Shown here: in pieces, positions 26,301 to 64,000 of the stretch | Numbering within the stretch: position 1 is the stretch's first letter | How the letters are laid out: each line of letters starts with the position of its first letter | From: Actinernus sp. WN-2022 | Taxonomy: Eukaryota; Cnidaria; Anthozoa; Actiniaria; Actinernidae | Length of the DNA: 64,000 nt | Direction of reading: 5' to 3' | Assembly (NCBI GenBank): GCA_030867875.1 | Contig: JAOWCC010000751.1 | Coordinates: forward strand, 1 to 64,000 | Notes under the pieces: model-generated | The model's database searches: none | What the model saw: the letters and a program-made list of their open reading frames with translations, nothing else | What the model was told of the DNA's origin: nothing | Program-made: the position numbers and the translations under genes

Positions 26301-29300
26301 AATTCACTGACGGGATATGTCAGTAATATGGGCTAAAGTGAACAAGTTCCACCGTAAATACGTTGTGGGTAAGTGGTGGGTAAGTGGTCGGTAAGCTGTT
26401 GGTAAGCTGTCGGTAAGTGGTTGACTCATTTGAACCAAAATATGCTTTATACCTTCTTAAGTTTCCAACGTTCTGGCAATGATAAACCGCTTCGATAACA
26501 GATAACAAATAAAAATATCCGCGGCACTCACTGTTGGGCCTTTCCTGTTGTGTCAAAAACCAGACAATCAGTCTGAAAGCGCATGAATCGTTATCTCATA
26601 CGAATGTCGCCGAAATTTTGGGCAACTTTTCGTTCGAAATTTCGACGAAAATTCGAATGCCAAGGCGAAATATCGGCAACCTGCGAACAACATTTCATTT
26701 ATTGTCAAACGAAAATTCGGACCAGGTTATCGAAATATTGTACCTGTTCATTGCGCAATTTCGTATTTTAACCTTTCTTTCACGGCAGGATTAACGCGTG
26801 ACAAATTCGAATTCATGACAAGCAGTTTTACAAAGTAACGTACAATAAGATGGTTTTGGTAAATACCCTGCATGCCAGAGGCGTCGAAAAGTCAAGATTC
26901 TAAAATAATAGATTTGCTGCAGTTTGCCGCAGTTTGCCTGTGTTGTTAAAGAACATGTGATATCAGATAGATGGGAATCCAAGATGGCGTGGGTTCACTA
27001 ATTCACGGAGTTGAATCGAGAATATGCTGCAAAGAAGAAAAGACAGATATATTGAGTACACTATTTTCATCAATATCCAACTATCTACAACGTAGTAAGA
27101 ATGTGCTATTGACAAATTTCGTTCTAACATTGGAAAGCTACGTGATATCAAGAGCGTTATAAGCGTGTATAATACGCACATACGCACACTTTGAGGCGAA
27201 AATTCCCCGTTTGTACTATCAGCTGGATTTTACTTTGAGACGAAAATTCCCTGTGAAAACCATTCTCAAGTATTGTCGGTAAGCTGTCGGTAAGACAGTG
27301 GTTGGTAAGCTGTCGGTAAGTGGTTGGTAAGCTGTCGGTAAGTGGTTGGTAAGCTGTTCGTAAGTGGTTGGTAAGCTGTTGGTAAGTGGTTGGTAAGTGG
27401 TTGTTACCGACAACAAATTTATGGTGCAACTTGTTCACTTTAGCCAGTAATATGTAAAGTGCCATGAGACTGTGGTGATATGGCGCTACAGTACCGCCGG
27501 GAATTATAGGGACATCCGACCGCGGAAAAACCTCGTGCACCAGACGCGGAGCTGCAGTACGGTGCCGCGGTCACCGCACAAATGACCGCGGTCACCGCAC
27601 AAATGACCGCGATAGTTTTTGAGGACGCCGCGGTTGCAAACTGAGGTGATAAACCGAGGTGCTTGCCGCGGTGCCGCAATGGACTGTCATACATGTACGT
27701 TGTTAGCAGTCTTCGTACTTGAAAGCTTTGAATGTGATGGATGACAAACAGCTTATGCATTGAGCCTAATCACCCAAAGAACGATCACCGGCATTAAACT
27801 TCTCGTAAACAATCTTCTGTTAACTTTCGTAAGTTGTCTTTCTTACTTGAGACCGCCGTTCGCGTTCTAAACTAACGAAACCAAATCACAGCTTCAAAAT
27901 AAGCATTTCTTGAGAGACGACCCGCTAACAATCTTCTGTTAACTTTCGTAAGTTGTTTTTCTTACTCGAGACCGCTGTTCGCGTTCTTATTAACTAACGA
28001 AGCAACTGCTTCAAAATAAGCATTTCTTGAGAGACCGGGCCCGCTAACAATCTTCTGTTAACTTTCGTAAGTTGTTTTTCTTACTCGAGACCACCGTTCG
28101 CGTTCTTATTAACTAACGAAGCAACTGCTTCAAAATAAGCATTTCTTGAGAGACCGGGCCCGCTAACAATCTTCTGTTAACTTTCGTAAGTTGTTTTTCT
28201 TACTCGAGACCGCCGTTGGCGTTCTTATTAACTAACGAAGCATAACACCAAATAAACTTTTGCTTCAGTGTAGTTTCACATTTACGGCAGATCCTTGTCT
28301 TGTTACTAGGTTTCGGCAGAAATAATTGTAAATGTTTGCGTATTAAATTCTCAACTCTTCTTGGAGTCTGAATTTCCACGTGCAATCAGTCAGGCGTGAA
28401 CGTGTCAGTCTGATGTTTTTACAGAACATCGACAGAGTTTTGAAGCAACGTTTGTCATATTGAAAGATGTACAAAAACTTCTATACTCTTACCAGAAAAC
28501 TTCTACTCGGAAAGTGCAATTCCTTTTGAATTAAGAGCTTTAACGCATCGAATCAGATCAGTCAATTCGCGTAAATGGCAATTACTTTCTCCGCGGTATT
28601 TGTATCAGAAATGAGACACGCGTCTGGCTGACAGTTCACGATTGACAGGAACTTTTATTATACTGCGCAGTAAGAATCTTGACTTTTTGACGCCTCTGGC
28701 ACGCAGGGTATTTACCAAAACCATCTTACCGTACGTTTGTAAAACTGTTTGTTATGAATTCGAATTTGTCACGCGTTAATCCTAGTGAAAGAAAGGTTAA
28801 AATACATACGTAATTGTGCAATCAACAGACACGTTTCGGATCACGATACTTCGATAACTTGGTCCGAATTTTCGTTTGACAAATGTGACCGAACACGGGA
28901 AAACATACATTAACGGGAAAGCGTTAAACGGGCAAATATAAACGGCTTGCTAACGGGTTTTAAAGCCGTTTAAACGACTTTACAAGGTCGTTAAACGGGC
29001 AAGGAGAAAATTCAAACGACTTGCCAAATTGTTTAAACGCTTTGCTTCAAGGAGCTAACGACTTTGCAAGTCGTTTAAACGGGTAATAAAATATTCCTAA
29101 CGTCTTTGCAAGTCGTTTAAACGGGTAGTGAAAAATTCCTAACGACTTTACAAGTCGTTTAACGGGTAGTGAAAAATTCCTAACGACTTTCCAAGTCGTT
29201 TAAACGGTTACAAAAGTCGTTTAAATGCTTAGCAAAAAAACTTAAACGGGCTAAGGTCGTATCACTATCCGAACACGCGCCCTCTGGAAGAGTTGCAATG

Positions 29301-32300
29301 TCTCGATTTGGTATTCGTGAGGATAAAAGACCAGCAAGAACCATTGGTGTCTATCCGATTTAATTTTCTGCCTATTCCACGCCTTGAACCCCCAAGATAA
29401 CAAATCAATGCAATATCACACGTCCAAGAAACACTTGATGCGAACGGCTCGCTTTCAATTTGTTTTGGAATATGTGACCAAATACACACGGGAAAACGTA
29501 CCTTAACGACAATCCGTTCGAACGGCAAAATAAACGGGCAACGAACGCTTTTAAAAACCGTTCGAACGGTTTCTCAAAGCGTTCGAACGGGCAGTAAAAA
29601 ATATTGAACGGGCACGCTATTTCCTGCAGGCGTTCGAACGGCTTGATGTAAGCGTTCGAACGGCCTGATTTAAAACTCGAACGGATTGCCCTGACCGTTC
29701 GAACGACTTGTCCTGACCGTTCGAACGTTCAGGGCAATCCATTCGAACGGTCAGGGCAATCCGTCCGAACGACTTGCCCTAAATTAATGTTCGAAGAGTT
29801 AAACATAAGCATTCAAACGCTTTCGCATTAATGTTTACACGACTACCGAACGGTATGAATTCTACCAAACTTTAACAAAGGCTTTTAATTTCGTCGAACT
29901 TTGAGTACATTTACCGTAAATGCTTTGAGTCAGTTGTAAACAATGTATACTCGGTATTTTGAAGCGGGTAGTCTTCGTGAAATCTCTAATTCTAAAGACT
30001 TAGATTGAGCATTCGACGGCTGTGTGAAAATGCTTTCGAATGGCCAAATAAACGTGCAATGAACAAATAACGATCCCTGAAAGAAGGAATTAGTCTGGCA
30101 TTAGAGCTAGTAAACTGCGAGATTTGTTTACGCGTGCCAGTTCAGGGAAAGATCAGATTTCACCTCTCCTGGCCTGGGAAATGTTTTAATATACGAATCA
30201 TGACACACAAAACTCTCAGTAATACTCGTCTTACAAATTCTTCATTTCGCTCGCTCCGCTCGTAAACTCACTATCAATGGATGGAAAAGGAGGGACTGCT
30301 TATTCTTGTTTACAAGCGGCAAACTGGACGTTCATAATCTGTCAACGGCGTGACTAGTGATCAGTTCTGATCGATTCAACCAGGGAGGTGGAAGATTGAA
30401 CTTGCAAGTACATGCAAATTTTAAAAATTCATTTGCACGTTAGCGTGTTCTTCTGATGACGGAGCACAACAAACGACAATGCACTAGCCTGCTAAAGCAG
30501 AAGCTTAGTTTCATTTTTAGCTGAATAAACATGCACTTGATGGACGAAACACAGGTCCAAACAAATAACAATCATTAGCATAATACCAGTGGTGTAAATT
30601 TTGCGCGCTCTGATTGCAATTAATTGGCGTGCGCTTTTCAATGAGATTGTCAGTTTTTGTTTCCATGGAAACCTAACAACACGCCTGTAGGTTTTTTTAC
30701 AGATCAAACTCTGGATCAAACCAGAACGCGAAATGGATGAAGCTGAATGCGAACAAAACACTGAAAATTTGCAGAAATTCTTAAGTGACAGCTGTGGATG
30801 CTCTCTTGGACAAGGCGGCGGGCCGTGCTCAAAGCAGTTTACGGAGGAGATAATTTTATTTAACTTGAATAATGTTCTAGAACTTTCTAGTACCGAGCAA
30901 GATCTGGTCATTCTGGCCAGCATTCAAGCTTTTTCTAGAAGAGAAGCAATTGGAGAAAAACGAAGAAGAGGTCCGCGATGTAACTTCATGTTTCAATCAA
31001 CTATTGTTTGCAGGGACATGTTTTTAAAACTCTATGGAATTAGTGACTGGAGATTTCGTCGATTAAAGGAACATTATGAGTTGAACGGAATCTCGCTGAG
31101 GGTTCATGGGAACACCAAAAGACTGCCATGGAATGTGATCTCACAGTCATCACTAGAGGACGTGATGGCTTTCATCGACAATTACGTGGAGGAGAATGCC
31201 ATAACGTTACCTGGCAGAATTCCTGGGTACAAAAGCGATGAACTTCAGCTTCTGTCAAGTTGTGAGACAAAGAAAAGCGTGTGGAAGACTTACACAGCAG
31301 TCTGTGAAGCGTCAGGCAAATCTCCAATCAGCAACTCGAAGTTCAATGAGATGTGGGGACAGTTTTATCCCACTGTGATTTTTGCTAAGCCAAGAACGTA
31401 CCTGTGTATGACTTGCCAGGATAATACATCCAAACTGCTGCGATCGGCCAACCTTTCCGAGGCCGAAAAGTCTGACTGCGTTAAGGTGCAGCAACTTCAC
31501 TTGGACCGTGCCCTAGCTGAACGAGACCACTACCGCAGTGCGTGTACCAAAGCAACCGAGGCTTTAGGTACTAGGACGATGAGCGGGACAAGAGAGCCAT
31601 GCTCCTGGAGTGTTATGATGCACTACAGTTTTGATTATGCGCAGCAAATTCATATTCCAAGTAATCCAATGCAGCCAGGTCCGATTTATTTCAAGGCACC
31701 GAGGAAGTGTGGCATATTTGGGGTGATGTGCGAGGCTGTACCGCGACAAGTCAACTTTTTGATTGACGAAGCTTCTGCTACTGGGAAGGGAGCCAACGCG
31801 ACAATCAGCTATCTCCATTATTTTTTGGAGCATCACGGACTGGGGGAAACGGAAGTTCATCTTCATGCTGATAATTGCGCGGGGCAGAATAAGAACAATT
31901 ATTTCTTGTGGTACTTAGTCTGGAGAACACTGATGCAGCTGCATCACTCCATTGCATACTCATTTTTACTTACTGGACATACAAAGTTTGGACCGGACCG
32001 TTGTTTCGGACTAATTAAGAAAGCATATAAGGTAAATTATATATCATCGTTATATGAATTTGCTAGTATGGTAGACTCCTCAAGTAATGTCGGAGTTAAC
32101 AAATCCCAGTTAGTCGGTACACACGATGGGAGAGTTATTGTTCCCGTGTATGAGTGGTCTGTTTTCTTAGAACAGTTTTTTCGCAAATTGCCGAATATTA
32201 AGAAGTATCACCACTTTCGGTTTTCTCGAGAGCATCCAGGCATAGTATTTTTTAAGGAGCAGCCCAGCTCAGAGGAGCAGTCATTTATGTTACTGAGAGA

Positions 32301-35300
32301 TCAGGGACTCGTGCCAGCACGCTCAGCTCGTCCTCGAGTTATCAGGCCAGAGGGGCTGTCAGACGAGCGAAAGCAGTATTTGTACCGAGAAATCAGGCAG
32401 TTTTGTAGGCCTGGCACCGAAGATTTAGTTACACCAGCTCCATAGGAATTTTAAGGTCGAAAGCTAAATAAGTTTATCAAAATTTGCTTCACATTTGAAC
32501 ATGGAATAGGAATGGTTCAGTGCGACTACTCTAACTATTACTTAGTATTAGGTTATCGTCGTTGTAAATATATACCTACTGTAATATTAGGGTTTGCATT
32601 ATAACACGTTAGTTTTGTCAATATAAAATTAGCGACTTAAATTATTGATGTTGTAAATAAACTTTATTTCTATCTTTAATTTTAATTGTGATCTTTGATA
32701 CAGCGCGCATAAAACACGGCAAGAAAATTTACAGAGAAATGGCTAAAGTGAACAATCTGCACCGAAATATACGTGAAGTATTCACAAGAGGTGCCGCCTT
32801 TAGAAATATAATATATGCATCTGGAGCTTTAAAATGATATGTTTGGCGAGGTTTTAAATGCGCTAGAAGTTGAATTATTGGGAATGCAGGCTGCTCTTGA
32901 TTCACCGCTAAGTCGTTGCACACAACGCGAGAAGCCGCTTTTACGAAATAATCATTTTCAAAGTTCCTCGTAACATCGCATCACAGCCGCCTTTAAAAAT
33001 ATAATCTATGCATCTGGAGCTTTAAAATGATGTTTGGCGAGGTTTTAAATGCGCTAGAAGTTGAATTATTGGGAACGCAGGCTGCTCTTGCATGATTCTT
33101 AAATCACCGCTAAGTCGTTGGACACAACGCGAGAAGCCGCTTTTACGAAATAGTCATTTTCAAAGTTCCTCGTAACATCGCATCACAGCCGCCTTTAGAA
33201 GTATAATCTATGCATCTGGAGCTTTAAAATGATATGTTTGGCGAGGTTTTAAATGCGCTAGAAGTTGAATTATTGGGAATGCAGGCTGCTCTTGATTCAC
33301 CGCTAAGTCGTTGCACACAACGCGAGAAGCCGCTTTTACGAAATAATCATTTTCAAAGTTCCTCGTAACATCGCATCACAGCCGCCTTTAAAAATATAAT
33401 CTATGCATCTGGAGCTTTAAAATGATGTTTGGCGAGGTTTTAAATGCGCTAGAAGTTGAATTATTGGGAACGCAGGCTGCTCTTGCATGATTCTTAAATC
33501 ACCGCTAAGTCGTTGGACACAACGCGAGAAGCCGCTTTTACGAAATAGTCATTTTCAAAGTTCCTCGTAACATCGCATCACAGCCGCCTTTAGAAGTATA
33601 ATCTATGCATCTGGAGCTTTAAAATGATATGTTTGGCGAGGTTTTAAATGCGCTAGAAGTTGAATTATTGGGAACGCAGGCTGCTAAGTCGCTAAGTCGT
33701 TGCACAAGAACAATGCGAGAAGCCGCTTTAACGAAATAATCATGTTCAAAGTTCCTCGTAACATCGCATCACAGCCGCCTTTAGAAATATAATCTATGCA
33801 TCTGGAGCTTTAAAATGATATGTTTGGCGAGGTTTTAAATGCGCTAGAAGTTGAATTATTGGGAACGCAGGCTGCTCTTGCATGATTCTTGAATCACCGC
33901 TAAGTCGTTGCACACAACGCGAGAAGCCGCTTTTACGAAATAGTAATTTTCAAAGTTCCTCGTAACATCGCATCACAGCGGCCTTTAGAAATATAATCTA
34001 TGCATCTGGAGCTTTAAAATGATATATTTTGCGAGGTTTTAAATGCGCTAGAAGTTGAATTATTGGGAACGCATGCTGCTCTTGCATGATTCTTGAATCA
34101 CCGCTAAGTCGTTGCACAAGAACAATGCGAGAAGCCGCTTTAACGAAATAATCATGTTCAAAGTTCCTCGTAACATCGCATCACAGCCGCCTTTATAGAA
34201 ATATAATCTATGCATCTGGAGCTTTAAAATGATGGTTGGCGAGGTTTTAAATGTGCTAGAAGTTGAATTATTGGGAACGCAGGCTGCTCTTGCATGATTC
34301 TTAAATCACCGCTAAGTCGTTGCACAAGAACAATGCGAGAAGCCGCTTTAACGAAATAATCATGTTCAAAGTTCCTCGTAACATCGCATCACAGCCGCCT
34401 TTATAGAAATATAATCTATGCATCTGGAGCTTTAAAATGATATGTTTGGCGAGGTTTTAAATGCGCTAGAAGTTGAATTATTGGGAACGCAGGCTGCTCT
34501 TGCATGATTCTTGAATCACCGCTAAGTCGTTGCACAAGAACAATGCGAGAAGCCGCTTTAACGAAATAATCATGTTCAAAGTTCCTCGTAACATCGCATC
34601 ACAGCCGCCTTTATAGAAATATAATCTATGCATCTGGAGCTTTAAAATGATGGTTGGCGAGGTTTTAGATGCGCTAGAAGTTGAATTATTGGGAACGCAG
34701 GCTGCTCTTGCATGATTCTTAAATCACCGCTAAGTCGTTGCACAAGAACAATGCGAGAAGCCGCTTTAACGAAATAATCATTTTCAAAGTTCCTCGTAAC
34801 ATCGCATCACAGCCGCCTTTAGAAATATAATCTATGCATTTGGAGCTTTAAAATGATATATTTGGCGAGGTTTTAAATGCACTAGAAGTTGAATTATTGG
34901 GAACGCAGGCTACTCTTGCATGATTCTTGAATCACCGCTAAGTCGTTGCACACAACGCGAGAAGCCGCTTTTACGAAATAGTAATTTTCAAAGTTCCTCG
35001 TAACATCGCATCACAGCCGCCTTTAGAAATATAATCTATGCATCTGGAGCTTTAAAATGATATATTTTGCGAGGTTTTAAATGCGCTAGAAGTTGAATTA
35101 TTGGGAACGCAGGCTGCTCTTGCATGATTCTTAAATCACCGCTAAGTCGTTGGACACAACGCGAGAAGCCGCTTTTACGAAATAGTCATTTTCAAAGTTC
35201 CTCGTAACATCGCATCACAGCCGCCTTTAGAAATATAATCTATGCATCTGGAGCTTTAAAATGATATGTTTGGCGAGGTTTTCAATGCGCTAGAAGTTGA

Positions 35301-38300
35301 ATTATTGGGAACGCAGGCTGCTCTTGCATGATTCTTGAATCACCGCTAAGTCGTTGCACAAGAACAATGCGAGAAGCCGCTTTAACGAAATAATCATTTT
35401 CAAAGTTCCTCGTAACATCGCATCACAGCCGCCTTTAGAAATATAATCTATGCATCTGGAGCTTTAAAATGATGGTTGGCGAGGTTTTAAATGCGCTAGA
35501 AGTTGAATTATTGGGAACGCAGGCTGCTCTTGATTCAGCGCTAAGTCGTTGCACAAGAACAATGCACAACGCGAGAAGCCGCTTTTATGAAATAATCATT
35601 TTCAAAGTTCTTCGTAACATTATAGCCGCCCTCCACCCTAAAAGAAGAGACCCACACAAACGCGAGTATTCATGTATTCATATTTTATTTACTAACTTTA
35701 AGTTTAACAGATAATACAGCGTCATTATTTACACGGCACGTGTTGCGTTTCCCGCTGAATCATTGCTACCTCCCCTACGCGAACCAAAAAACTTAGTCGC
35801 CCTGCACTTGCCGTTAATTTTTCCCTTAATCTTACGCCACACTGTAACCTCATTCTCCCCAGACGCCAGTGGAAACCTCGTGAAAAGGAGTACTGAAAAA
35901 TAAACAAAGAAAAAAACATTAGGTCATAGAAAGGTTATAGAAGAAGGAGGCCACAAGCATTACTGGATTGCATTTAGTTGAGGTATAATCAGTGATCAAT
36001 AAGACACATTTTGTGTAATTTTACACTCCACCCCACAAAGTATTGTATATTTACAAACCTTTCAGAGAGTTCAGTTTAGTAGAATCTAGGGCTGATTTCC
36101 CGTAATTGCCATCTGTGTTGGAGGAGCTCAGGTCTTCAGGGGTAAAAAAGTACGACAGTAGTCTTACTGCACAGCGGTGGCGTTCCTTTTCCTCGTGAAG
36201 TGTCTTGTGCACTTGTGGAATCTTGCGCGGAGTGAAGCAGCTGCGCAGCAGCTCGTCCGACACAGCGCTAACCAATATCGAGACTGGCGGCAGTGGAGTC
36301 GAAGTCAAGCGTTGTTCGGCGACCGCGTTATTTGAAGTATCCGGGCAGATCTGTTGCAGTGTGTCTAGGTTAATAGTGTGAAGCAACGGAGTCTCGATCT
36401 CCTCGCGCATCTCATCAGTCGTTTCTGCGCACGCGTTCCCTTGTAGCTGCAAAGCATAAAAACAAAGATATTACTCTTCAATGATTTTTCGTGAATAAAT
36501 ATTTCAACCTACAAGAGAACGTAATATCCCTTGAAAAATGTTATCAAATAATCTATGCTGTACCGATACCAAATTGGTGTGTGCCCTTCACGTTACAATG
36601 TCTTTTCCAGTAAGGAATGTGTGTTACTTACCAAGCTTACGGAAACGTCGGGAGTAGAAGGTAGTGGCACAACGCCGATGGAAACTGACTCCAGGGATTC
36701 CAGGCGGTGTTCTATCCGGTTCAACGCCGCTTGCATCCTTGATTCCATGGATGCTATGGATTCTCCTAGCCTTTCTACAACCTGTAACATTAGAGTGATG
36801 CAGTTAAGTGAAAGAAGGTGAGTATTAAATAAAGAACCGTGCTTATATTTACCTTGTATAACCTGTCGTTGGCCGCTAACTGATCATTCAGCACTCTCTC
36901 CTGTCCTGACTCCAGCGCTCGTAATTTCTCTCTCAGGATCTCGCACTCCTTCTCTTTTTCTTTGAGCGGGCTGAAGCTCTCGTCCAGAATGGTGGCGGTA
37001 CTGATCTTCGGACGTTCTTCATGCATTTTTTCCCACTGCTGCTCTTTCTCCCGCTGTTCAGCTAAGTACTGATCGTACGGATGAACCGCAGCCTTGGCTG
37101 AGTTTTCATCTTTTTGGGCAGGCTTTTCCCTGACAAATCCTGTTAAAATGACGAGAAGCTACTTTATAAAGGCTCACAATATTTATGTAGTATATAAGCC
37201 CTTTTTAAATTGAAAAATGGCTCTCACCTTTCCATGATTTTACCTCCCATGTTTCAACCACTTCGGCATCGTACCACCGGGTACCAAATTTTACTTGAAC
37301 AACGTCGCCGGGAAGAAGGCTCGGCCATCGCTTTTCACTGGGTGTACTCTCACGGAGGTGCCGTATCTCTTTCCTCTTTGGCCAGTGAGGGTGATCGTGC
37401 CACTCACACTTTGTTTTCCAAAGCACCTTAACTTTATTGTTGACCGACATTGTAATTAAATTGAAGGAGTTCGTGCTTGTAAGATTGCGAGACAATAATG
37501 AATGCTTTTCACGTTCACGCTTGTTTATCCTTTCGACATGTGCATAATTAGATGGCATCTGATTGGCTGAAGCAATGCCATTTATCGCGTAGCAACCATT
37601 GTTTGGTTGAAGTTCCGCGCACGAGCAATTTGCGCTACACGCACTGATAATCAGTGGTGCGGAAAAGTGTAAACATGTATTTGACAGCGAACAGACATCA
37701 TGACTGCAAAACCGGTTATTCGAGAAATGTGATACTAGTTCGAACATGGAAGTGAGAATGGCAAGTCGTGCCACCAGAGGTTCTCGTCGCTTCGCTCCCA
37801 GACACTCGTTGCAGAGACACTCGTTGCAGAGGCGCTTCGCGCCTAACTTTCGCGAAGGGAGGCAGTAGAACCTCTGGTACCAGGGTAGGTGGATTTCCAC
37901 TGTCGCGTATTTTGTTACGACGTAAAACCCGTGTCAAGAAAATGTCCATAAATAATCTCACTGTCATATTTAAAGTTCGTTATTTAAACGTCACAACCCT
38001 TTTCACTTACGTTTTTGAAATGGTGGTTTGCTCACGTAAAAAATCATTTTTGCTTTCATTTTTTTACGTACGTAGAGAAAAACGCAACAACCTGACTAAC
38101 TAAACGGCTTATGTTTGAGCTAACGACTTTGCAAGTCGTTAAACGAACGGATAGTGAAATTCCTAACGACTTTCCAAGCCGTTTAAACGGGTAGTGAAAT
38201 ATTCCTAACGTCTTTGCAAGCCGTTTAAACGGGTAGTGAAATATTTCTAACGACTTTCCAAGTCGTTTAAACGGGTAGCCGAAATTTTTTAACGAGTTGC

Positions 38301-41300
38301 AAAGTCGTTTAAACGGGTTCTCTTGCTGAGCTAACGACTTCTCAACTCGTTTAAACGGGCAAGGAGAATTTTCTAACGCTTTAGTTGATGAGCTAAACGA
38401 CTTTAGAAGCCGTTTAAACGGGAAGCTAACGACTTGGACCGTTAAACGGAAAGGCGTTAATGTATGTTTTCCTGTGTTCGGTCACAAATCGTCGAAATGT
38501 CGCTGAACAAAGAGCGAAATTCGTCGAAATATGTTTGCATGACTTTTGCACAATACTGTAACGAAGCCAACCGCTTCTTTTTAGCCACGGCACGCTAACA
38601 ATCTTCTGTTAATTTTCGTAAGTTGTCTTTCTTACTCGAGACCGCCGTTCGCGTTCTGATTAACTAACGAAGCCAACTGCTTCAAAATAAGCATTTTTTA
38701 ACACACGGCTCGTTAACAATCTTTTGTTAACTTTCGTAAGTTGTCTTTCTTACTCGAGACCGCCGTTCACGCTCACGTTCTAACGAAGCCAACTGCTTCA
38801 AAGTAAAATGTATGAGATGTACATGTAGATGTTACATGCGGTCACGGTTAGCGCCGCGGCATGACCACCGCGGTACGATTACCGCGGCGACCTCAAAAGT
38901 GACCGCGGCTATCTCAAAAGTGACCGCGGCGACCTCAGGAATGACCGCGGTCACCGCAAAAATGACCGCAGTTTTTCACAGTAAAACCGCGGGCATTGCA
39001 TGCGGCACAGTCGCGGTAAATGTCCCTATAATTCCCGGCGGTACTGTATATAAATATGGCCATTATTTATTATTAGGAAAAACATTTGATAATGGACTCG
39101 AGCTTGGCTTTACATGCCATCCAGATGTTACTAATAAGACAAGTGTGATTTACCAGTAATTAATGTTTTGTTTGTAGTCTGCTGCATCATGCTACATCGA
39201 GCTGATTGTTAAGGAGAGTGATAATAATGTCAAACTGATCGTCCTGGACAGACTGATCAAACTGAAGGAGAACCCAGCTCATGAGAAAGTCCTTCATGTG
39301 AGTACACTTGCATAACATTATACATAGAGGTTTTTAATTGGTTAACCAGTTAATATATGGCTGGGTATTTTGACAAGTCATATGTATTTTGATGAGCCTT
39401 TAGGCAAGCTAATGCATGTGATGAGAAAAATTGTGCAGCCATAATTATTCTAACAAAGTGGTCTAGAGCTACAGGTCTTGGAATTTAAAAAATCCTTAGT
39501 TGCCACTTGACTACTAAAATAAAATGTATAGTCACCAGTCGGCAAATGTTAGTGGCTGAATTGTTGACTAATAGGTAAGTTTTAGTTGCCAAACATTTTT
39601 AGTCAATGACTGTTCTAGTAGACTTATAGTAGGAGGCTTACTGTCCATTTTGTGTGTGTATCACTCTGAAAAGAATAACAAAAGTAGGTTGTTTTAAATC
39701 ACAAAGAATAATTGACTTTTGTTAGGTTCACTTGGTAATGTATTATAATAACCAAAATCAAGGAGATACAGTGGATCTTATATGCATGTACAATATTCAA
39801 ACCATTCATAAACATGTATGTATTTAACATACATGTACTATTTAGGAACTTGTGATGGACATCCTGCGAGTACTTGCATCACCTGACCCTGAGGTTCGCA
39901 AGAAAACACTTCAACTTGTCCTGGATTTAGTTACATCAAGAACTATCCACGAGGTAAGATGGCACATTCTACATTTGCTATGTCAAGATTGTTAGTGAAC
40001 ACAAACATTCATTTAGTAGGGTATCCATGTTGCTTTAAAGTATATCCTCAGTAATTGCCATATTTTACCACAGCTTTACCTGTCTAATGGTAGATTAGCT
40101 GTGTGTTACCATATGAAAAGTCTCCATCTGCTTTTTATTAACTCATACACTTGGTACAAAAACCACTTTCTTCCCGAACATGTAATAATTATGTAATAAT
40201 AATGTATAAATAATTAGTAAGCGTAACATTGTGTGTAGAGTGAATGAACTGCAGTTTAATTTATAATTTAACGACCAATGTTATTCTGTAATTGAGAGTG
40301 AATGAACTACAGTTTATAATATTCTCATGTCCAATGTTATTCTGTAGAGTGAATGAACTACAGTTTATATTCTCATGTCCACTGTTATTCTGTAGAGTGA
40401 ATGAACTACAGTTTATAATATTCTAATGTCCAATGTTATTCTGTAGAGTGAATGAACTACAGTTTATAATATTCTCATGTCCAATGTTATTCTGTAGAGT
40501 GAATGAACTACAGTTTATAATATTCTAATGTCCAATGTTATTCTGTAGAGTGAATGAACTACAGTTTATAATATTCTCATGTCCAATGTTATTCTGTAGA
40601 GTGAATGAAATACAGTTTATATTCTAATGTCCAATGTTATTCTGTAGAGTGAATGAACTACAGTTTATAATATTCTCATGTCCAATGTTATTCTGTAGAG
40701 TGAATGAAATACAGTTTATATTCTAATGTCCAATGTTATTCTGTAGAGTGAATGAACTACAGTTTATATTCTAATGTCCAATGTTGTTCTGTAGAGTGAA
40801 TGAATTACACTTTGTAATCAAAATCCAATGGTATTCTGTCACCAGGTTGTTGCTGTACTTAAGAAAGAAGTGTCAAAGACTCACTTTGAGAGTGAACATG
40901 CCGACATTGGCAGCTATAGACAGGTACTAAGACCTACATGTATGTGCAACTTCCTAGCAGGGAGGGTGTTTTCAGATGAAATATCCTGCATGCTGCCTTT
41001 TTGCAAAAAAAAAATCTTACACAGGAATGCAAGTGAAAATAAATATCATGCACACAGCTTTGGGAAAGAAAAAAGGGCAGAATGAGAAAAACAAATAATT
41101 CACATGTATTGCCTGGAAAAAAAACATTTGTACCATTCAAGTGGGTGGACAAATAAATTACCTGCACAAACTACATCACCCACTCCTCCCCTAAGAAGTT
41201 AAATAGTTGGCCCCTTAGTACAGAAAATCTTTGATTCATTACTTTCAGAAATGAATGTTGTCATGTACATGTAACTTGTTGTTATGCCTGAATGTGTAGT

Positions 41301-56300: not shown

Positions 56301-59300
56301 AGTATATAGGTCCATTTGATTGATGGATGACAAAACTCTAAAAGATGCTGTAACATTGCTGCAAAGAATGTCTAACTACAGGTATGCTCAGATTTCATTC
56401 TCCTCTTTTTAGCCTATAACTGATGATGACGTAGACCGTATCTCGCTGTGCCTGCGTGTGGTTGCTGAGCGAGTACCACTGATGAAAAACATATTTACTG
56501 TTGAGTGTCGTCAGTCCCTTTCCACCATGTTGGAAGCCAACAAGAAGCTTGAAGAAGCACAGAAAGTCAAGGTCAGTGTTACAGGGACACTGTCAACCCC
56601 CAAATGATAAACTTTCTCATGAAAAAAAGACGAAAATAACTACTCAGATTAGAAGAGCATGCTTTCCAGGTATACTGGAGAAAATCGGAGATTATTTTAA
56701 CAAAGGATGACAAAGATTTGAGTGGATGAAAAATACTGCTTCTAAGAGAGATTTAGAGCAACTTCAAATCGGTTCACTATAACTGAAATCAAGTTTCTAG
56801 AATAAGCTTTTGTAATCCACTTCAATCTTTGCCATCCTTCATTGAAAAAGTTTTGAAAATCATATGCTGACATTCACATGGTTCTGTTCTATCTCAGGGT
56901 GTTATTTTTGTAGTTTTGTTGTTAAGAAACGTAAAGGTCCAATTTGATGGACGTTGCCCCCTTGACAAACTTTAATACTGTGTTTATTTCAAAATGCTTT
57001 CCTCAGACTAATGTTGAAAAAAGGAAAGAAAAGCAAAAAAGTCCAATAATCCTCCATTTTTTTATGCAAAATGCTTAATTTTCCTCCCTGATAAGATTAT
57101 TTGAAGGGCTGTGTGCAACAAGGGCGTAAATGACTCCTGATCACATTCTAAATTCTCCCTTAGAAAACAAAGAATTGGAGGGAGAATTTAGAATGTGATC
57201 AAGAGACACTTATGCCCTTGTTGCACATACCCTTCATATATATTTTTTAGTGAAATTATGAGAAAATATCTAAAAAATGAAGTCCAATTCAATTCAATTA
57301 TTACATTGCTAACTAACTGTACTTATACACACACATATACATGTATGATTGTTTCCACTGGTTTTTTTTTATGTTCCAAAACATCCTTGCCTTGGTATTT
57401 CAGGTGATACATGTATTTAGAAGAATGAATAGGAAGCATACTCTGTACTTTGTGATTTATTACATACATTGTACATGTAGCAGAGGTGGTAATGAGTACT
57501 AATAGAATGAATAGGAAGCATTTGGCCATGCTACAACTCTGTACTTTGAGATTTATTACATAGCAGAGGTGGTAATGAGTACTAATAGAATGAATAGGAA
57601 GCATTTGGCCATGCTACAACTCTGTACTTTGAGATTTATTACATAGCAGAGGTGGTAATGAGTACTAATAGAATGAATAGGAAGCATTTGGCCATGCTAC
57701 ATCTCTGTACTTTGTGATTTATTACATAGCAGAGGTGGTAATGAGTACTAATAGAATGAATAGGAAGCATTTGGCCATGCTACAACTCTGTACTTTGTGA
57801 TTTATTACATAGCAGAGGTGGTAATGAGTACTAATAGAATGAATAGGAAGCATTAATATTGGCCATGCTACAACTCTGTACTTTGTGATTTATTACATAG
57901 CAGAGGTGGTAATGAGTACTAATAGAATGAATAGGAAGCATTTGGCCATGCTACAAGTACTCTGTACTTTGTGATTTATTACATAGCAGAGGTGGTAATG
58001 AGTACTAATAGAATGAATAGGAAGCATTTGGCCATGCTACAACTCTGTACTTTGTGATTTATTACATACATGTAGCAGAGGTGGTAATGAGTACTAATAC
58101 CCAGCTGTGTACCAGAGGTTGTATTATTCCCAGCAGCAGCCCGAGTGGCTGAAATAGACAGTAATTGTGTCCTGTTGGGAGCCACAAGAGTCAAGTAAAG
58201 ATATTTCATTGCTCGACTGTTGTGGCTTTGCCGCTCGGGCTCTCCTGGCTCAGTGTTGGCAGGAAAAATTACCTGTGGCACCCAGGGTAATGAGTACTTG
58301 GTCTCTTTCTTTGTTTAGGCTGAGGCGGAGAAAGTGCTTGCCATACAAGCAGATGACCCAATCTCATTCCTGACATTACTGGCCAAGTCAGAGAGTGGAA
58401 TAACAGAGGTACAACAACTTTTATGTTCCTCCTTTTGTTACGTGTACAACATGTATGTTATGTATATACGTAAAATGGATTTTGTTTCCTTTTCACCTGT
58501 ATTATTTTGTGTATTTTCATGATAGGATAGTATTTATTTTGTGTATTTTCATGATAGGATAGTATTTATTTTGTGTATTTTCATGATAGGATAGCATGTA
58601 TTTTGTGTATTTTCAGGATAGGATAGCATGTATTTTGTGTATTTTCAGGATAGGATAGTATGTATTTTGTGTATTTTCATGATACATGTTAGGATAGTAT
58701 TTATTTTGTGTATTTTCATGATAGGATAGTATGTATTTTGTGTATTTTCATGATAGGATAGTATGTATTTTGTGTATTTTCATGATAGGATAGTATGTAT
58801 TTTGTGTATTTTCATGATAGGATAGTATGTATTTTGTGTATTTTCATGATAGGATAATATGTATTTTGTGTATTTTCAGGATAGGATAGTATGTATTTTG
58901 TGTATTTTCATGATAGGATAGTATTTATTTTGTGTATTTTCATGATAGGATAGTATGTATTTTGTGTATTTTCATGATAGGATAGTAGTACATGTATGTA
59001 TTTCAACTATACATATAGGACTCGAAATAAGGTTTGCATGATTGCATGACAACTTGCTAGTAGAATCATGCTGAACTTTTTGTTCTTTCTTGTTGCTAGT
59101 GGATCAGACCATGTTAAATCTTTGTTTGTTTATCTTCGGATAAATGAGGCTCTTGCAAGGTACACTAACGTATCGGAGACGGTCATTTCACACACACTAC
59201 TTACTACGTTCATATATTATCTGCACTCAATGCTCAACTCACATGTTAATTTTTATGGGGAGGAAAACCGGAGAAAAAACGTCGGAGCATGGATGAGAAT

Positions 59301-63129: not shown

Positions 63130-63724
63130 GCACGGGCCTTGAAAAGTCCGGTTTGAAATACCGTCATGTCCTTGAAAAGTCCTTGAAATACCGTCATGTC
63201 CTTGAAAAGTCTTTGAAATACCGTCATGTCCTTGAAAAGTCCTTGAAATACCGTCATGTCCTTGAAAAGTCTTTGAAATACCGTCATGTCCTTGAGAAGT
63301 CCTTGAAATACCGTCATGTCCTTGAAAAGTCCTTGAAATACCGTCATATCCTTGAAACGTCTTTGAAATACCGTCATGTCCTTGAAAAGTCTTTGAAATA
63401 CCGTCAGGTCCTTGAAAAGTCCTTGAAAGACCGTCATGTCCTTGAAAAGTCCTTGAAATACCGTCATGTCCTTGAAAAGTCTTTGAAATACCGTCATGTC
63501 CTTGAGAAGTCCTTGAAATACCGTCAGGTCCTTGAAAAGTCCTTGAAATACCGTCATGTCCTTGAGTAAAGTAAAGTAAAGCAACTTTATTTAACGTCAG
63601 TAACTCGTAACAGTCTGATGAGACTGATAAACTTGAGGCCGACGGGAGTCCTACGATTTTACGTCCTTATCCGAGAAGACGTGAAGGTCTAACCATTTGC
63701 AGTTGTTTCACAAAGGCAGCACCA

Positions 63725-63762
<38 letters not shown>

Positions 63763-64000
63763 CCGGGGTTTGAACCCGCGACCTCCCGCTCAACAGACCG
63801 GAGATTAACCACTGAGCTAACCGGGAGGCGGTTAGCTCAGTGGTTGAGAAGTCCTTGAAATACCGTCAGGTCCTTGAAAAGTCCTTGAAATACCGTCAGG
63901 TCCTTGAAAAGTCCTTGAAATACCGTCATGTCCTTGAGAAGTCCTTGAAATACCGTCATGTCCTTGACAAGTCTTTCAAATACCGTCATGTCCTTGAGAA
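63130..64000 (+). repeat. 30-bp minisatellite, about 20 copies, runs off the right edge
   Basis: Unit TTGAAATACCGTCATGTCC plus TTGAAAAGTCC, starting 15-20 bp after the exon 20 donor. Because the unit is 30 bp, it is open in frames on both strands (repeating VLEKSLKYRH on plus). Interrupted by a SINE at 63567-63828. Confidence 0.95.
63567..63828 (-). mobile_element. SINE family A, copy 4, inserted in the minisatellite
   Basis: Full-length: minus strand A box GGTTAGCTCAGTGGTTAATC and B box GGTTCAAACCC, body, and a (TAAAG)n end at 63567-63582. At the head side the first 20 bases are also present in inverted form (63829-63846), giving a hairpin. TTGAG flanks both sides. Confidence 0.88.

Follow-up and report, generated by a model that had tools for sequence, protein, structure and literature searches.

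Positions 27489 to 39046 of a 64-kb stretch of the Actinernus sp. WN-2022 genome (contig JAOWCC010000751.1, positions 1 to 64,000; hereafter, the window) hold a DUF7869 gene, a BEN-domain gene and a satellite, which raises the question of whether these form a single mobile element and which protein would move it. An earlier inspection of the letters alone (hereafter, the sequence-only reading) had proposed one two-gene transposon of 11.6 kb. The analysis described here leads, with good confidence, to a different arrangement, in which a 9.6-kb element lies inside a gene-less one, its DUF7869 gene likely encodes an Asp-Asp-Glu/Asp (DDE/D) transposase, and its BEN gene encodes a protein with predicted binding to the end repeats. 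The two nested elements, referred to below as the outer and the inner element, consist of the following parts:

27489..28884, outer element (gene-less and TA-flanked), left part, with its end at 27489-27515
27808-28242, 119-bp repeats of the outer element
28881..28884, left-hand AAAT of the target duplication
28885..38485, inner transposon of 9,601 bp, holding the DUF7869 and BEN genes, the palindromic arrays and the satellite, recognized by the empty site in other outer copies, its ends and the AAAT duplication
28885..28915, plus strand, left terminal inverted repeat of the inner element (GTGACCGAACACGGGAAAACATACATTAACG), matching the right end at 30 of 31 bases
38455..38485, minus strand, right terminal inverted repeat of the inner element
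38486..38489, right-hand AAAT of the target duplication
38486..39046, outer element, right part, with its end at 39020-39046

The perfect 27-bp inverted ends with TA on both sides, on which the sequence-only reading relied, are indeed present, as a 29-base inverted repeat (TA plus 27 bp) at 27487-27515 and 39020-39048 of the window. Elsewhere in the same genome (G000; 1.39 Gb in 1,772 contigs), however, they flank a gene-less element of up to ∼2 kb, whose left 276 bases occur in at least 40 copies with 93 to 100% identity (40 of 475 candidates scored). In six of the seven other loci that were first cut out, the counterpart of 27489-28884 continues straight into the sequence found at ∼38485 of the window; in the seventh, the stretch does not reach far enough to tell. 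The uninterrupted site reads TTTGACAAATCG in the four printed loci (in one, with a neighboring change), and the same site in the window reads TTTGAC-AAAT-[GTGACC...GGTCAC]-AAAT-CG. Among 20 fetched copies of the 39 other outer copies, 14 have both ends within the stretch, ∼0.9 to 2.1 kb apart and invariably flanked by TA (14/14). The empty site is held by 14 of the 20, and none of the 20 shows an inner-type end in the stretch read, with the far end lying beyond that stretch in six. These empty sites in gene-less, TA-flanked copies indicate that the 9,601-bp element at 28885-38485 landed in an outer element. It is a separate insertion with its own AAAT duplication and its own 31-bp inverted ends, which start with GTGACCGAACAC, and it encloses both genes and the satellite.

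The ends of the inner element recur throughout the genome, the right one in at least 40 copies with 89 to 100% identity (40 of 123 candidates scored) and the left one in at least 50 matches (40 of 558 candidates scored). Pairing these ends by eye, with the window excluded, gave 26 pairs; both junctions were fetched for 20 of them, whose ends lie 1.6 to 13.3 kb apart. One has a damaged end, and in 17 of the 19 testable pairs the same 4 bases are found on both sides, always in the form ANNT (ATAT in six, ATTT and AATT in three each, ACAT and AAAT in two each, and ACTT in one). Sliding the flanks by 1, 2, 3, 4 or 6 bases reduces the agreement to 0 of 20; flanks paired across different copies agree in 51 of 380 combinations because of the ANNT preference. 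Since the T and A on the outside hardly vary, an equivalent notation would be TGTGACC..GGTCACA ends and a duplication of 2 bp in A-NN-T; the 4-bp form is used throughout this work. The only outer-element match among 20 flank pairs is the window's own. From the sequences of its junctions, the inner element appears to move by itself, independently of the outer one. On C1380, a copy of 1.65 kb with the duplication ATAT matches 28883-29628 and then 37674-38486, with both arrays kept; judging by this alignment, it derives from the gene-bearing element by internal deletion. A relative of 5.3 kb on contig C734 (L029, 403-5717) has GTGACCACACACGGGAAAAC ends and adjoins an outer copy; it showed no long DUF7869-type frame and no clean 4-bp duplication.

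The ordered subterminal repeat blocks and the 14-unit satellite between the two genes were also confirmed, although the repeat blocks turned out to be divided between the two elements: those of 119 bp and 21 bp (CCGCGG) are the outer element's, and the palindromic ones of 42 bp and 22 bp are the inner element's. The arrays of the latter are the following:

28967..29237, subterminal 42-bp repeats on the left, containing the palindrome CGTTTAAACG, four of them exact
29474..29771, second end-like block GTGACCAAATACACACGGGAAAAC and, after it, 22-bp repeats containing CGTTCGAACG, seven of them exact
32793..35620, satellite of 14 units of roughly 191-210 bp, between the 3' ends of the two genes
38120..38420, subterminal 42-bp repeats on the right, containing CGTTTAAACG, six of them exact

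All 10 exact occurrences of CGTTTAAACG in the window fall within the inner element, four near its left end and six near its right end, and seven of the nine occurrences of CGTTCGAACG belong to the second left block. A reading of the block at 29474 as the left terminus of another insertion was considered and rejected. No convincing partner end was found in 32446-38120 (score 26; 200 shuffles averaged 23.9 and reached at most 37), the score of 36 obtained in 38121-38482 corresponds to the known right end, and the start of the block is kept in the deletion derivative C1380. The satellite has only two units in the related loci L054 and L055.

The two intact convergent genes of the sequence-only reading are both there, as an open frame of 570 codons on the plus strand and one of 403 codons spread over five exons on the minus strand:

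30733..32445, plus strand, DUF7869 gene, 570 amino acids, single exon, intact, with candidate catalytic residues D301, D380 and D422
35729-37450, minus strand, BEN gene, five exons, convergent on the DUF7869 gene
37228..37450, minus strand, BEN exon 1
36853..37139, minus strand, BEN exon 2
36632..36781, minus strand, BEN exon 3
36059..36446, minus strand, BEN exon 4
35729..35892, minus strand, BEN exon 5

The protein encoded by the first gene matches DUF7869 (PF25273) with an E value of 2.9e-18 and 66.6 bits, well above the curated cutoff of 26. It is predicted to adopt the RNase H/integrase fold, with D301, D380 and D422 as a conserved triad. All 37 aligned members of the family match DUF7869 and three of them weakly match HTH_28, but none matches any Pfam transposase family at an E value of 0.05. 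The family is large, with 823 matches at E values of 0.001 or less; those of the listed relatives that have names come from the stony corals Montipora, Oculina and Acropora. A sequence search of the PDB gave one chance-level match, and scans of viral contigs gave no relative. In the genome, the protein has at least 89 matches (76 of 189 candidates scored), and five copies are full length or nearly so and free of stops: the one in the window and those on C813, C909, C1684 (75% identity) and C235 (69%). A distant frame of 441 codons without a stop (L062; C813:5433390-5434697; 33% identity) possibly represents another DUF7869 subfamily. Relatives encoded on two small contigs filed as bacterial metagenome-assembled genomes (L031 and L032, one from a sponge symbiont) are most likely due to contamination by animal DNA.

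DUF7869 genes elsewhere in the genome are accompanied by the same kind of ends. The comparison used 30 DUF7869 loci with ∼1.5 kb of flank, some of which overlap in place (L046/L051, L040/L053, L043/L059 and L044/L060) or are near-identical (L054/L055). The 31 controls (L002-L032; 124,291 bases) comprised 29 loci of the same genome, taken from places outside the DUF7869 matches listed and in part overlapping (L011/L012 look like one site assembled twice, and L015-L017 share one flank), and the two metagenomic contigs just mentioned. Ends of the GTGACC type lie near the DUF7869 gene in L038, L045, L046/L051, L047, L052, L054, L055 and L059. In all eight cases checked, six upstream and two downstream, they are oriented toward the gene; the C1684 copy has such an end as well. 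A poor end-like match in L037 points away from the gene, and the match in L033 is the internal block. The control loci gave four end matches, three of them from the related C734 element and one spurious. The DUF7869 genes found beside these ends are of 45 to 82% identity.

C813 and C909 carry near-identical copies, probably two assemblies of a single site, with 99.9% identity to the window over 3,152 bp, which points to recent movement or duplication. Both are cut at the position corresponding to 29639 of the window, with the initial 754 bases of the inner element missing, and their right end reads GGTCAC-AAAT in unrelated sequence. The DUF7869 gene of this copy (C813:11435244) thus occurs apart from the outer ends, just as the outer ends occur without the inner element, which for the outer ends is the pattern that the sequence-only reading had named as speaking against its own proposal. 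The first 400 bases of its locus (L034; C813:11433744-11438453) hold an exon that reads like UDP-glucose 4-epimerase, directly followed by the copy, which probably sits in or near a gene of that kind.

The BEN domain is a DNA-binding domain known from chromatin factors. In the window, the five exons have GT/AG borders and join to the open 403-amino-acid frame, in which the domain (PF10523) is recognized with an E value of 6.4e-07 and 29.9 bits against a curated cutoff of 23.2; the splice junction within the domain agrees with that of the relatives P0123-P0125. BEN sequences were found within ∼1.5 kb of flank in seven of the 30 DUF7869 loci (L038, with a weak match, and L043, L044, L054, L055, L057 and L058) and in none of the 31 controls. 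Their BEN identity ranges from 31 to 93%, which argues that the pairing is old. The two genes converge in L054 and L055, as they do in the window, and lie on one strand in L043, L044, L057 and L058. In the coral Oculina patagonica, the DUF7869 protein P0026 and the BEN relative P0121 come from contigs of the same length, 64,437,903 bases, and are therefore probably encoded on one chromosome, with their adjacency not visible. A literature search for transposons carrying BEN found none by title, and the one paper checked had BEN only in its reference list. A plausible role for the BEN protein would be to bind the palindromic repeats near the ends of the element.

In the proposed mechanism, the DUF7869 protein would cut at GTGACC..GGTCAC and join the ends to the target with a 4-bp stagger at ANNT, while the BEN protein, bound to the CGTTTAAACG and CGTTCGAACG palindromes, would help to pair the two ends. 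Short gene-less copies would arise by internal deletion and be moved in trans. The satellite probably grew within the element and would not be needed for movement. The substance of the two-gene DUF7869/BEN transposon suggested by the sequence-only reading thus stands, with many copies, shared ends, BEN beside DUF7869 and a predicted integrase-like fold; its ends, its size and its TA duplication do not.

The main rival to this reading is that the inner element has already been catalogued under another name, for example in Repbase. This is unlikely; in its favor, DUF7869 proteins are so numerous that curators may have entries for such elements. The PIF/Harbinger layout, a transposase with a second, MADF/Myb-like DNA-binding protein, resembles the model in having one catalytic and one DNA-binding gene product. 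However, the Harbinger-type DDE domain (Pfam DDE_Tnp_4) was not matched by any of the 37 members at the E value given above, and BEN takes the place of MADF/Myb. The target duplication of RAG-like (RAGL) transposons is 5 bp long, not the 4-bp ANNT seen here, no RAG or Transib Pfam match was found, and TTAA, the piggyBac target, is found in 0 of the 17 pairs. RAGL transposons do share with the inner element an arrangement of two convergent genes (PMC7204232), and piggyBac shares the 4-bp duplication, but with CC..GG ends (PMC10045372) instead of GT..AC. Ginger1, as described in parts of PMC2836005, combines an integrase-like DDE enzyme with TGTNR ends and a 4-bp CCGG/CCGT duplication, and Ginger targets are CCGG/CCGT or RTATAY. 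The inner element is similar to Ginger1 and Ginger2 in its integrase-like DDE enzyme (here predicted) and to Ginger1 in the duplication length, but its target is ANNT, TGT ends would leave a 2-bp duplication, and no integrase-type Pfam match was found. IS481EU has TNT..AYA ends and duplications of 4, 15 or 25 bp (PMC10045372); in the inner element, TGT..ACA ends would leave 2 bp, and the 4-bp form has GTGACC ends. The TA duplication of Tc1/mariner (PMC10045372) is not that of the inner element either; when A-NN-T is read as 2 bp, the middle is TA in only six of the 17 pairs. Repbase listed, in 2022, 23 superfamilies of eukaryotic DNA transposons, 21 of them with a DDD/E transposase (PMC10045372). 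The inner element fits none of the superfamilies compared above by ends, target or Pfam matches, and a literature search found no paper naming DUF7869.

It is far less probable that DUF7869 and BEN are passengers and that an unrelated transposase from elsewhere in the genome moves the inner element. Gene-less copies would move in trans anyway, but DUF7869 genes as divergent as 45 to 82% identity stand beside the same ends at several places, and the predicted fold of the protein is that of an integrase-like catalytic domain. The weakest alternative, a single 11.6-kb transposon with TA duplication and short copies as its internal deletions, accounts for the perfect outer ends with both genes between them but is rejected as practically untenable, since the short copies miss exactly the stretch between the second pair of inverted ends plus one AAAT, which internal deletion is not expected to produce, and the inner ends are found at many sites, with 4-bp duplications of their own, and beside DUF7869 genes.

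The outer element, for its part, has the TA target duplication characteristic of Tc1/mariner. Its identification with the coral CMITEs was rejected, as these are tied to piggyBac in PMC2872659. On the 131-kb contig C931, three outer left ends lie on the same strand at 35539, 72227 and 90559, ∼36.7 and ∼18.3 kb apart, a spacing suggestive of a tandemly repeated 18.3-kb unit that holds an outer element. Further tandem arrays of the window are found at 57478-58099 (83-bp units), 58499-58987 (32-bp units) and 63137-63997 (30-bp units).

For DUF7869, a large family without an assigned function in Pfam, the association with a defined mobile element provides a testable transposase function, together with end sequences and a target site. 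The pairing of an integrase-like enzyme with a BEN protein suggests that the latter has an accessory role in recognizing the ends and that BEN genes may have a mobile source. On balance, the inner element seems to represent an unnamed superfamily of animal DNA transposons that would insert at ANNT with a 4-bp duplication, with DUF7869 as the transposase and BEN as a dedicated partner reading the subterminal palindromes, and some animal BEN genes may have spread in this way.
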